Notes under the pieces: model-generated | What the model was told of the DNA's origin: nothing | Databases searched by the model: none | What the model saw: the letters and a program-made list of their open reading frames with translations, nothing else | Translations under genes and position numbers: made by a program | Shown: one piece after another, positions 1,281 to 5,875 of the stretch | How positions within the stretch are numbered: position 1 is the stretch's first letter | Layout of the letters: each line of letters begins with the position of its first letter | From: a bacterium | GTDB lineage: Bacteria; Coprothermobacterota; Coprothermobacteria; Coprothermobacterales; JAADFF01 | Direction: 5' to 3' | Assembly: GCA_027063755.1 (NCBI GenBank) | Contig: JAMORD010000124.1 | Span: 1 to 5,875, forward strand | Length of the DNA: 5,875 bases

Positions 1281-3086
1281 TTATATAATACCCAGACGCT
1301 GTAGTGTTTCAAATGTAGGACGACCTTCTTCGTCCCATCCTCTGACCTTATAGTACTCTGGTAGAAGTTCTGGTACCTTGGCAACCCAACCCTTAGATGG
1401 TCCTTCGGGCATGGGCTCTTCAAGGAGTCTCTTAGGTAGAGTATCGTCTTCTTTGGTGAATCCTACATCAAGGTTATATAGTCTTTCAAGGTTCCATATT
1501 CTTTCACCGGCTTCAAGGGCTGTATCTGCTGTGTACTCAACACCGGTAATAGCACTGACAAGTGCTGCGTAGTCTTCAGCACCCAATGCAAAGGATGTAA
1601 ACAGACATAAGCCAGCAGAATCAATGAAGCCTGTAAGATCTTGGAATATCTTTACCCACTGGGCTTTGCCTTCAAGGGCAAATCTGTCTATTGCCTCAGG
1701 TGTGGCCAACACCTCAGGGGATATGAGGTAAGCTCTAACATGGCAACCACCACGGTTGTTGGTGGCATAGGCCAGTGCGTGGCCCTGAACACCTCTTGGG
1801 TCATATGCAGGCAGTTCCTGTTTCTTAACACTCATAGAAAATTCGGGATGACCATACATCTCGCCCAGTCTATAGGAGCCTTCTGCCAGCTTGTCACCAA
1901 AGCCCTCTCTCTTGGCCAGTTTCTCAAGCCAGTAGAGGAGTGCCTCTGCATTACCGAATTTTAGTTCGGGTCCTTCACCAATATCTTCTTTAGGAATAAT
2001 GCCTCTTTCATACATCTCCATGGCTGCTGCTATGGTGCTACCGGCAGAAATAGTGTCAAGACCCATATCATCGCATATATAGTTTGCCTTGATGATGGCC
2101 TTAAGGTCGGAAATACCACAGTCGGCACCGAGAGCCCAGATAGATTCATACTCAGGACCTTCGCCTTCTTCACCGTCAATCTTCGTTACACGACCGCAAG
2201 CAATAGGACATGCAAAACAACCTTTGTTGGTAACAAGGTATTTCTCGGCCAATGTTTCACCAGATATCTCTTCGGCTGCTTCGTATACACCTGTCTGGAA
2301 GTTCTTTACTGGGAATATACCTGCTTTGTTGATGATGTTAACGAGAACAGCAGTACCATAATTGGGCAGTCCCTGGCCAGTAATACCATTTTCTTTGATC
2401 TTCTGCATAGATTTGACAAGGGCATCTCTGAACTTTTCTGGGTCTGCTACTTTTACCTCACCATGTCCTCTGACGACAACGGCTTTGAGGTTTTTGGAAC
2501 CCATTACTGCACCAACACCAGTACGACCAGCGGCACGGTGCTCATCGTTTACAACTGCAGCAAATTTTACGAGGTTTTCACCAGCAGGACCTATGGCGGC
2601 AACCTCTATCTTGTCGTCGCCAATCTCCTCTTTCAGGGTGCGCGTTGTTGCAGATACGCCTTTGCCCCACAGGTGAGATGCATCTCTCAGTTCAACTTTG
2701 TCATCGTTGATGTAGAGATACACGGGTTTCTCTGCCTTACCCTCAAAGATAATCATGTCCCAACCGGCTTTCTTCAGCTCTGCACCGAAGAAGCCACCAG
2801 AGTTGGAAGAGGCAATGGTGCCTGTTAGTGGACCTCTGGTAACGACCATGTAACGGCCACCGGTTGGTGCGTTTGTACCTGTAGCGGGACCAGTTGCGAA
2901 TATTAGTTTGTTCTCTGGAGATAGTGGGTCAACATTGTGAGGTACTTCTTCAAAGAAGTACTTGGTGGCAAGTCCTCTACCACCAACATAGTCCTTGGCC
3001 CACTTCATGTTCAGTGGTTCTGCAGTAATCTCTCCTGTAGTGAGATTGACACGAAGAATTTTTCCGGCCCATCCGCCGTAGTTCAT
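1281..3086 (-). CDS. aor: Tungsten-type aldehyde:ferredoxin oxidoreductase
   Basis: This 601-residue cytoplasmic enzyme oxidises aldehydes to carboxylic acids and passes electrons to ferredoxin, using a bis-pterin tungsten (or molybdenum) cofactor and one [4Fe-4S] cluster. The length equals that of Pyrococcus furiosus AOR (605), and the two are near-collinear. Visible landmarks: N-terminal cofactor domain with NAPTGGRY (72-79), [11 protein letters not shown] (94-104) and [20 protein letters not shown] (183-202); cluster ligands Cys290, Cys293, Cys297 and Cys494; pterin motifs DDMGLD (339-344) and DSAGLC (489-494); and probable active-site residues Glu314 and His449, matching Glu313 and His448 of P. 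furiosus. Both ExxH motifs that hold the inter-subunit iron in P. furiosus are altered (Lys333 and Leu384). The start is ATG 3086, preceded by GGGAGGGTGAT, and it matches the family N-terminus; a GTG nine bases upstream lies inside that ribosome binding site. The gene is monocistronic or nearly so, with its own promoter, structured leader and terminator. Confidence 0.96.
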
Positions 3087-3090
3087 AAAT

Positions 3091-3101
3091 ATCACCCTCC
3101 C
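3091..3101 (-). promoter_or_regulatory. AOR ribosome binding site, sequestered in the leader stem
   Basis: The minus-strand sequence GGGAGGGTGAT ends four bases before ATG 3086 and closely resembles the complement of the 16S rRNA 3' end. It decides the start: the in-frame GTG (3095-3093) falls inside this site and so is unlikely to be used. Nine of its eleven bases lie in the closing stem of the leader. Confidence 0.8.
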
Positions 3102-3203
3102 TTTATTCCTCCCCTTTGCAACAGCAGGTACGTCCGTTGCCGGGCGTGCCCTATCGGTCTATGTGGCCCAGAGGGTCACATAGACTCGGAGAGGGTGATT
3201 TTC
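3091..3203 (-). ncRNA. Structured leader of AOR, candidate Moco/Tuco-type riboswitch
   Basis: Read as minus-strand RNA, the leader begins at the predicted transcription start and ends just before the AOR start codon. A perfect 9-bp closing stem pairs AUCACCCUC (3199-3191) with GAGGGUGAU (3099-3091); a further AA/UU pair lies beyond an A-A mismatch. This stem buries the AOR Shine-Dalgarno sequence. Inside the junction are: a long hairpin at 3185-3157 (9 bp plus an inner CCC/GGG, loop UCU); a short GGG/CCC hairpin at about 3151-3142; and a GCAAC/GUUGC stem (3140-3136 with 3122-3118). The segment CUCUCC (3193-3188) can also pair with GGGGAG (3114-3109), which offers a competing or extending helix. 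Moco/Tuco riboswitches are known to regulate cofactor-biosynthesis and cofactor-using genes, AOR included, and occlusion of the ribosome site fits a translational OFF switch. The pairing is seen directly; the family assignment is inferred, as no covariance search was possible. Confidence 0.62.
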
Positions 3204-3211
3204 TATTTAAT

Positions 3212-3217
3212 ATTATA
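3212..3217 (-). promoter_or_regulatory. -10 box of the AOR promoter
   Basis: The minus strand reads TATAAT here, within TGCTATATAAT, so an upstream TG is also present. The expected transcription start, near 3204-3206, is only a few bases before the first paired base of the structured leader (3202 or 3199), which supports both calls. No good -35 box lies 16-18 bp upstream, so an activator or TG contacts may help. Confidence 0.6.
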
Positions 3218-3355: not shown

Positions 3356-4636
3356 ATGAATGAGACATCTACCGGTTATAAAAAGTGGCTTGTGTGGGGT
3401 GTAATGGTAATAGCCTACATGCTTGTGTTCTTCCATCGCTATTCAATGGGTAGCATGGGCGACTTTATTATGAAAGACTTTGGTACTACTGCGGCTGTGA
3501 TAGGCATGATTGGTGCTATGTATTCGTGGGCTTATATGCTTATGCAGCTGCCTGCTGGTATGCTTGCCGATTCTATTGGACCAAGATATACGGCTGCCAC
3601 CGGTATGCTTGTGACTTTCATTGGTTCACTAATCTTTGCCTATGCTCCAAATGTCCATATGGTTATGATAGGTCGTTTTATCATTGGTATAGGTGTTAGC
3701 GTTATATTCATATCTACTCTGAGAATACAGGCATCGTGGTTTTCTCCTACAGAGTTCACCCGTATGTCAGGTCTTACGGTATTTATGGGCAAAATTGGTG
3801 CCCTTATTGCAGAGACACCATTGGTTGTGATGATAGAAAAGTATGGATGGAGAAATACCAGTGTTATTATTGGTGTGGCATCTCTGCTACTTTCTATTTT
3901 GATATTCCTATTTGTTAGAAATACACCACATGGTGATAAGTACGAGCACAGTGATGTTAGTATTTGGGAGGGACTTATATCTGCTCTGAAGAATAAGTAT
4001 ACATGGTTTCCCATGCTTGTGTTCTTTGGTATATATGCCTCATTTATGGCTTTTTCAGCCCAGTGGGGCAACAAGTTCCTTCAAGATGTCTATCACATAT
4101 CCAAAACTGCCGCAGCCAACTATGTGATGGCATCTATTATTGGACATATGCTTGGTGCCGTTACCCATGGTAGCATGTCCGATATGCTCCGCAGTAGAAA
4201 ATGGTATATGGCCGCCGTTGTAGGTATATATGCTTCTTTATATCCCATTATGATATGGGGTATGAAGGCTGGTTGGCTGACAGTAGGAATAGCACTGTAT
4301 GTTATGTTCTTCCTTGTGGGTTTTACATCTGCCGGTCTTATCATTTCCTATACGGCCTCTAAAGAGGTTAATATGCCAAGGTTTTCTGGTATTGCTACAT
4401 CTATTGTCAATATGGGGGGGTTCCTTGGTTCTGCTATAGCCCGCCCTTGGTTTGGAAAGATTCTTGATGGCTATGTGCTGAAGGTTGTTGATGGAGTAAA
4501 GGTGTATAGTATAGATGGATATATAAAGGGGTTCTGGTTCTTGTTCTTCCTTGCCCTTATTGCATTTGTCGGAGCACTCTTGACATACGAAACAGGGGCA
4601 CAGAATAGATACGAGGAGATTATAGCCCGCAAATAG
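3356..4636 (+). CDS. Major facilitator superfamily transporter, 12 transmembrane helices
   Basis: This 426-residue inner-membrane carrier would move a small solute using an ion or solute gradient. The hydrophobic pattern gives two six-helix halves, with a hydrophilic central loop at about residues 188-215. The MFS signature motif A is clear between helices 2 and 3 (GMLADSIGPRY, 68-78), and a weaker copy sits at the matching place in the second half (HGSMSDMLRSRK, 271-282). Helix 1 ends with FFHRYS (25-30), which puts Arg28 near the membrane centre, often seen in carriers of anionic organic compounds. An extended loop (about 368-390) precedes the last helix. The start is ATG 3356 with GGAGGTG nine bases upstream; the in-frame GTG at 3344 lies inside that site. 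It is the first gene of an operon with the next two genes and is divergent from AOR. The substrate cannot be read from the sequence; an organic or amino-acid-derived acid is a guess from context. Confidence 0.9.
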   Translation: MNETSTGYKKWLVWGVMVIAYMLVFFHRYSMGSMGDFIMKDFGTTAAVIGMIGAMYSWAYMLMQLPAGMLADSIGPRYTAATGMLVTFIGSLIFAYAPNVHMVMIGRFIIGIGVSVIFISTLRIQASWFSPTEFTRMSGLTVFMGKIGALIAETPLVVMIEKYGWRNTSVIIGVASLLLSILIFLFVRNTPHGDKYEHSDVSIWEGLISALKNKYTWFPMLVFFGIYASFMAFSAQWGNKFLQDVYHISKTAAANYVMASIIGHMLGAVTHGSMSDMLRSRKWYMAAVVGIYASLYPIMIWGMKAGWLTVGIALYVMFFLVGFTSAGLIISYTASKEVNMPRFSGIATSIVNMGGFLGSAIARPWFGKILDGYVLKVVDGVKVYSIDGYIKGFWFLFFLALIAFVGALLTYETGAQNRYEEIIARK

Positions 4637-4651
4637 AAAGGAAGTATCTAT

Positions 4652-5503
4652 ATGTTGAAAATAAGTACAGCCGGTATCCCCCTATCGGCTCCAGATAGGA
4701 GTGTGATAGGGGGACTTGAGTATTTGGCATCGTTGGGACTTGATGGTATGGAGCTTGAATTTGTCAGAGGGGTGTACCTCAAGCCTGCTATGGCAGAACA
4801 GGTGAGGTATACAGCCGAACGTTTGGGACTGACACTGACTGTTCATGCTCCATACTGGATAAACTTTGCCTCACTTGATGAAGAAAAACGTATTCGTAGT
4901 AGAAAGTATCTCTTTGATTCAGCATATATTGGCTATCTTGCCGGTGCCACATCGGTTGTGTTCCACCCTGCATGGTATCAAGGGAGGCCTTCTGATGAGG
5001 TGCTTAATATTGTGTGGCACGAGCTGGAGATTGTCCTTGAAGATTTAGACAGAGAAGGCATTTATATAGATATAAGGCCCGAGCTTATGGGTAAACTATC
5101 ACAGTTTGGCTCACTTGATGAGCTCATAAAGTTGTATAAGTTGTCTGATGGTAGACTGAAACCGTGTATTGATTTTGCCCACCTTCAGGCCCGTACCATA
5201 GGCAAGGTCAACGGCTATAACGATTGGGATTATATTCTTACGAAACTTGAAAAGGCCATGGGCCCAGAAATTCTAAAAGATATGCATATACACTTTTCCG
5301 GCATAGAATTTGGACCCAAGGGAGAAATTAGGCATCTGCCATTTGCCGAGGCCACCATTGATGTTGACGGTTGGCTATCCCTTATGGTAGATAGAGAGAT
5401 AGCAGGTGTCGTTGTGGTTGAAAGCCCTATCCTTGAAGATGATGCAATGATGCTAAAAAATCGCTATGTTGTCCTTGAAAGGGGGATCAGCACTTGGAGA
5501 TAA
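4652..5503 (+). CDS. Endonuclease IV-like TIM-barrel protein (AP endonuclease family 2)
   Basis: This 283-residue cytoplasmic protein has the length and ligand spacing of endonuclease IV, a three-zinc enzyme that cuts DNA at abasic sites. Metal-ligand candidates occur in the family order: His65 (VHAPYWINFAS), His105 (FHPAWY), Glu144 (RPELMGK), Asp174 and His177 (CIDFAHLQA), His214 (HIHFSGIEFG), His228 (IRHLPF) and Glu257 (VVVESPI). These line up with E. coli Nfo His69, His109, Glu145, Asp179, His182, His216, His231 and Glu261. The ligand matching Asp229 is Ile226, with Glu225 beside it. The HFSGIE...RH form resembles what I recall of archaeal-type members of the superfamily, so a repair nuclease is likely but a sugar-isomerase-like or other role is possible. 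The start ATG 4652 has AAAGGAAG ending seven bases upstream. It follows the transporter by 15 bp and overlaps the next gene by 10 bp, so all three are probably co-transcribed. Confidence 0.82.
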   Translation: MLKISTAGIPLSAPDRSVIGGLEYLASLGLDGMELEFVRGVYLKPAMAEQVRYTAERLGLTLTVHAPYWINFASLDEEKRIRSRKYLFDSAYIGYLAGATSVVFHPAWYQGRPSDEVLNIVWHELEIVLEDLDREGIYIDIRPELMGKLSQFGSLDELIKLYKLSDGRLKPCIDFAHLQARTIGKVNGYNDWDYILTKLEKAMGPEILKDMHIHFSGIEFGPKGEIRHLPFAEATIDVDGWLSLMVDREIAGVVVVESPILEDDAMMLKNRYVVLERGISTWR

Positions 5504-5875
5504 AGGTGATGTTCCGCCTTGGTGGTGAAATTGGTATCAAGGCTCAGGGTACCCGTGAACGTATGATAGAGGTCTTGATGAAAAACATTGTAAAGAGAAG
5601 TAAGCGTTGGGGTATACCTATAAAACCTTATCAGAAGATGGGTAAATGGTGGATAGATGCTCCGATGGAACAGATGGACGATATTATACTCATGCTTCGC
5701 ACAACTCCAGGTGTGGCCCGCGTGTCAAAGGCCCTTGTGGGCGGCGAAGAAGAGTGGAAAGATATGCTTGATTATTTCATTCCCGAAAGCGGGCCCATAG
5801 CACCGTATTTCTTCATATATAAAACAGATGATGTTGACAAGGCAAGACAGTATAAAAAGGAGATACTCTCTTATC
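5494..5875 (+). CDS. thiI: ThiI-like tRNA 4-thiouridine sulfurtransferase, N-terminal part (3' end outside the window)
   Basis: About 127 codons are visible; the frame is open to the window edge. With a TTG start at 5494 the protein begins MEIKVMFRLGGEIGIK, which parallels the E. coli ThiI start (MKFIIKLFPEITIK), followed by a basic helix and the TTPGVARVSKAL segment (about 72-83), matching the IPGIHHI region of the ferredoxin-like domain. The start of a THUMP domain follows near the window end. ThiI transfers sulfur to U8 of tRNA to make 4-thiouridine, and in many bacteria also serves thiamine thiazole synthesis; the catalytic PP-loop domain would be downstream. Other starts are GTG 5506 and ATG 5509, but they would remove the first beta-strand. 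GAAAGGGGG ends eight bases before the TTG, and an in-frame TGA at 5476-5478 blocks any longer version. The overlap with the previous gene implies translational coupling. Confidence 0.75.
   Translation, partial: MEIKVMFRLGGEIGIKAQGTRERMIEVLMKNIVKRSKRWGIPIKPYQKMGKWWIDAPMEQMDDIILMLRTTPGVARVSKALVGGEEEWKDMLDYFIPESGPIAPYFFIYKTDDVDKARQYKKEILSY

Follow-up and report, generated by a model that had tools for sequence, protein, structure and literature searches.

Some translational ON riboswitches, such as the add adenine riboswitch, adopt a ligand-free fold in which a strand of the aptamer pairs with the Shine–Dalgarno (SD) sequence. Within the Moco/Tuco riboswitch family (Rfam RF01055), the platforms described are a ribosome-binding site (RBS) inside helix P1 and a terminator, with repression predicted from the RBS-in-P1 layout (PMC2408646). 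The Moco RNA of Escherichia coli moaA, with its RBS in P1, is an OFF switch that represses when Moco is made (PMC2408646). The family also includes Moco RNAs that carry a GCAA loop without the tetraloop receptor (PMC2408646), as well as a form lacking P3, which was proposed in 2008 to sense the tungsten cofactor (Regulski et al. 2008, PMC2408646). Direct ligand binding has not been shown for any Moco RNA (PMC2408646). The present analysis concerns an RNA that directly adjoins the gene for a tungsten-type enzyme, aldehyde:ferredoxin oxidoreductase (AOR), and its layout, which recurs at similar genes across several bacterial phyla, points to activation of AOR by the cofactor, not repression. If the leader of a tungsten enzyme works as an ON platform, it yields a sharp and easily scored prediction, namely that expression rises only when the tungsten cofactor is made, and this prediction is usable to test ligand identity and metal discrimination.

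The window, i.e. the whole 5875-nt stretch of DNA that was analysed, is a contig in a 1.5-Mb draft genome (G000:C124), and its coordinates are used throughout. The AOR gene occupies positions 1281–3086 of the minus strand, including its stop codon (PF02730, 1.6e-90; PF01314, 4.8e-160), and its ATG start (3084–3086) lies 8 nt beyond the SD and coincides with the starts of homologues. Immediately upstream, the minus strand from 3203 to 3095 matches RF01055 over the full length of the model (1–135) with 37.1 bits (E 1.5e-7; Infernal), a marginal score given the gathering threshold of 36, and the leader of a genus mate falls just below at 35.9. An earlier note on this DNA had proposed the Moco/Tuco class and named this covariance model as a check; the score above gathering and the abundant compensatory change in related leaders bear the proposal out. 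The AOR leader is a member of the Moco/Tuco family, a membership that is itself of a kind already known. A scan of the whole window against Rfam, with gathering thresholds and fast filters, gave no match, and RF01055 was found only when the scan was repeated with 281 bases; hence, the whole-window negative alone is misleading. Other weak RF01055 members may be under-annotated, as the match vanishes in the whole-window fast-filter scan. The snoR53 and RAGATH-27 matches in the 281-base scan were far under their own thresholds and were rejected.

Based on the Rfam alignment and on pair counts across 19 AOR-operon leaders, the conserved junction of the RNA is surrounded by P1, P2, P4 and P5, and the core residues and the P5 pair are intact. 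P1 joins CUCUCC (3188–3193), the strand shared by both states of the proposed switch, to GGGGAG (3109–3114), its predicted ligand-bound partner, which directly follows the conserved AAA; its pairing covaries in AOR leaders. P2 is formed by GUCUAUGUG (3177–3185) and CACAUAGAC (3157–3165), as seen in the fold, the Rfam alignment and the comparison with the genus mate, where a G-C pair has become A-U. P3 is absent, and the joiner from P2 to P4 is just 5 nt (CGAUA). P4 (3126–3151) is a hairpin with two C.A mismatches and a GCAA tetraloop (3140–3137), and P5, with its GC/GC pairs and loop (3118–3125), shows C-G to G-C covariation. The set of helices, the conserved UCCGA and AAAGG junction, the missing P3, the GNRA loop on P4 and the position upstream of a tungsten-enzyme gene are all shared with P3-less, Tuco-type members of RF01055, as is the coupling of a GCAA loop to the lack of a receptor in P2, a correlation reported for the family (PMC2408646). 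Unlike in described members, however, the P5 pair is flipped (GC/GC), P4 carries its two mismatches, and the SD lies several bases past P1, hidden by the P1 5' strand, a layout that predicts ON control. The element shares its aptamer family and a proposed translational control with the Moco RNA of E. coli moaA, but the latter has P3 and an RBS inside P1, whereas here P3 is absent and the SD (3100–3095) falls outside the P1 3' strand (3114–3109). In the free fold, P4 and P5 (3118–3140) give way to a hairpin, GCAACGG/CUGUUGC, that may serve as a further switching element.

Copies of RF01055 stand directly upstream of AOR orthologues in the same genus (where the AOR is 97% identical), in two genomes of the same order, in Hydrothermota, TA06 and Mesoaciditoga, and in the phylum of G057, as well as, in the class of G021, ahead of ferredoxin-AOR operons. 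Across the 19 AOR-operon leaders, 93% of the cells in P1, P2, P4 and P5 are paired, a percentage biased upward because the alignment blocks were trimmed manually to fit the structure, with P1 placed by maximizing pairing, one bulged base dropped from L007 and P2 of L104 set by eye. Far less dependent on this trimming are the double changes found in 15 of the 21 pairs, among them the C-G to G-C flip of P5 in seven sequences. The computed covariation score is 0.598 compared to 0.228 for shuffled alignments (0/500), and the signal is lost when the structure is shifted by a single column. The flip of P5, from CCUCCC..GGAAA to CCUGCC..GCAAA, defines a subgroup (L002, L136, L017, L107, L190, L108 and L109) that covers the copies seen with a GCAA or GUAA loop and no receptor; it also takes in some copies with GAAA and a receptor (L001, L097, L101 and L104).

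The leader as a whole, i.e. the 123 nt from 3206 to 3084 of the minus strand, folds with −50.9 kcal/mol, as against −34.05 ± 3.77 for shuffled sequences (z −4.5; 0/200 equally stable). At its 5' end, AUCACCCUC (3199–3191) is the perfect complement of GAGGGUGAU (3099–3091), and these 9 bp lengthen to 11 through a U.G and a C-G pair, so that in the minimum free energy fold AUCACCCUCUC (3189–3199) is paired with GGGAGGGUGAU (3091–3101), the region holding the SD GGAGGG (3100–3095). The folding and the 9-bp pairing had been read from the sequence in the earlier note, which described a folded leader whose very start pairs with the SD region and which encloses a hairpin with a 9-bp arm; all three are present, the hairpin being P2 of the aptamer. 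The note had also placed a TATAAT box where transcription would have to begin; the hexamer is there, at 3212–3217, as a candidate −10 box that would set the start near 3205, and it is kept in the same-genus genome G001, but no −35 element passed the promoter scan, and the start is thus known by inference only. In G001, the leader is nearly identical while the DNA upstream has diverged, and all of the differences fall in P2, where there is the one compensatory G-C to A-U change along with one U-A to U.G. The covariation check that the note had called for is likewise positive, in that the stem between the 5' strand and the SD region covaries in ten leaders placed in a hand-anchored, equal-length alignment, A3 (0.412 vs 0.260; 0/500).

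The 9-bp closing stem is distinct from the P1 of the aptamer. The 5' strand of the leader has two mutually exclusive partners, either GGGGAG at 3114–3109, which makes P1 of the known family and had escaped the first reading, or the SD region, with which it makes 11 bp. When the RNA is left free, the SD core (GGGAG) is computed to be unpaired with a probability of ≤0.03, compared to 0.99 when P1, P2, P4 and P5 are imposed. Opening the six SD bases costs 9.7 kcal/mol in the free RNA and 2.8 kcal/mol with P1, and at 60 °C the same opening falls from 7.2 to 0.9 kcal/mol. Among 100 sequences in which the SD core was preserved and its flanks were shuffled, none matched the observed SD cost and one matched the cost with P1. 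The energy needed to impose the full aptamer, 8.5 kcal/mol at 37 °C rising to 9.3 kcal/mol at 60 °C, has to be repaid by ligand and tertiary contacts, both omitted from the energy models. Since P1 and the SD-hiding stem exclude each other, cofactor binding should free the SD, and, as the SD core is hidden in the free RNA and open with the aptamer, the closing stem most plausibly represents the repressed fold that the RNA takes without ligand. The earlier proposal that the cofactor stabilizes this stem and lowers AOR translation, therefore, is probably reversed; while it had the riboswitch class right, its mechanism probably ran in the wrong direction.

On these folding models, the AOR leader is probably a P3-less, Tuco-type riboswitch of the Moco family whose platform acts as a translational ON switch. 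In the absence of cofactor, AUCACCCUCUC would pair with the SD region GGGAGGGUGAU and block translation; with a tungsten-pterin cofactor bound, P1 (CUCUCC/GGGGAG) would be held together, taking up the same 5' strand and releasing the SD core, such that AOR would be made when its own cofactor is available. Computation shows the family membership, the covarying aptamer, the exclusivity of the two pairings, the direction in which SD accessibility shifts and the return of that shift in other AOR leaders; the identity of the ligand, its binding to the RNA and this direction of regulation in cells are what we infer. The likeness to the add adenine riboswitch, in which aptamer strand and SD also compete and the ligand frees the SD, as is predicted here, is one of working principle only, the aptamer and ligand being different. 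The AOR-specific ON platform appears, provisionally, to be undescribed, as no description of an ON form before AOR was found in the main texts of the openly available papers searched.

The arrangement recurs in other AOR leaders. Imposing P1 lowered the SD opening cost in 24/24 AOR-operon leaders computed, although members of one clade do not count as independent, so that the pattern stands for a handful of lineages, not 24 separate events, and the shuffle control was weak or unremarkable for L104, L154, L018, L022, L179 and L190. In most of these leaders, it is the P1 5' strand that masks the SD in the free minimum; in others, e.g. L104, L007, L172, L179 and L193, the P5 segment does so. L107 and L190 each have a terminator-like hairpin of 7 bp that uses the P1 3' strand as its 5' arm; consequently, P1 would prevent termination. 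From P1 to the start codon there are 24–32 nt in most AOR-operon leaders and 28 nt in the window, whereas none of the 69 non-AOR copies of RF01055 has a spacing of 24–36 nt, and 32 of the 69 have ≤13 nt with the SD inside P1, which is the known OFF layout. Caloramator L017/L202, as well as L199, have longer leaders.

An OFF switch, as first envisaged, would require the cofactor to stabilize an extended P1, in which CUCUCC/GGGGAG is continued, across a 12-nt bulge, by an outer helix, AUCACC/GGUGAU, leaving the SD region occupied and AOR translation reduced. That outer helix can indeed persist when P1 is formed and can then mask the SD region at its 3' end; with P1 forced at 37 °C, the minimum contains the 6 bp of this helix alongside the inner P1, and the E. 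coli moaA element sets a precedent for repression (PMC2408646). Yet, even in the extended-P1 state the SD core remains unpaired at 0.99, as against ≤0.03 without the aptamer, part of the outer helix is lost at 60 °C, and the scheme is unworkable for those AOR leaders in which the P5 segment or a terminator does the work, making it unlikely. More doubtful still is a decayed or constitutive relative of Moco RNAs, one whose fold hides the SD but has lost the cofactor response; the low score, the P4 mismatches and the alternative P4/P5 hairpin of the free fold are in keeping with such decay, but the genus mate has almost the same leader despite the diverged DNA upstream, P2 has kept its pairing by a compensatory change, and core residues and P5 pair are intact. 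An ordinary structured 5' UTR or protein-binding leader unrelated to cofactor sensing, to which the lack of shown ligand binding for any Moco RNA (PMC2408646) lends some room, is very improbable in light of the covariance-model match, the repeated linkage to AOR across phyla and the covariation.

Apart from the ON switch proposed for the AOR leader, the source genome holds a second RF01055 copy (L001; 64.3 bits), which, unlike the window RNA with its GCAA loop and no receptor, has a GAAA loop and the receptor. It precedes genes whose best matches are WtpB, a tungstate permease, and WtpC, its ATPase, with scores under the curated cut-offs, and the genome also encodes AOR paralogues and members of the MoaA and MoeA families, i.e. 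the makings of tungsten-cofactor metabolism. Imposing P1 takes the SD opening cost of L001 from 4.4 to 3.9 kcal/mol, and that of its orthologue in the genus mate (L101) from 3.6 to 9.7 kcal/mol, the latter clearly OFF in sign. It is slightly favoured, on this evidence, that Tuco RNAs linked to AOR are, as a group, ON switches activated by the cofactor and working through at least three platforms (P1 strand on the SD, P5 strand on the SD, and a terminator that overlaps P1), and that before synthesis and uptake genes the same aptamer acts as an OFF switch, so that one cofactor signal would have opposite outputs in one cell. If true, the same aptamer would ration uptake and enable enzyme synthesis within a single cell.

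Several further features were seen along the way. In L001, positions 1585–1665 hold a perfect anti-aptamer hairpin, GCCAGUGUG/CACACUGGC, plus another hairpin, rich in C/G, with TTTT directly after it. Two other candidate copies in the source genome were rejected as sub-threshold, L003 (18.9 bits), inside an apparent coding stretch, and L004 (11.1 bits). On contig 244 of the same genome, a moaA-family gene lies together with two MoeA-family genes, one of 624 aa. At L140, L141, L142 and L147, from genomes of the G057 phylum, a Moco-type RNA, a terminator and an ABC binding-protein gene come after the end of an AOR-like gene, and L204 and L200 (G297 contig 88) are tandem Moco-type RNAs ~170 nt apart, resembling the tandems reported for Syntrophomonas wolfei. 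In the window itself, a DUF402 protein is encoded at 678–1220 on the minus strand, and the divergent neighbours at 3356–5874 on the plus strand are an MFS transporter, a TIM-barrel protein of the AP-endonuclease-2 family and the start of a ThiI-like gene.
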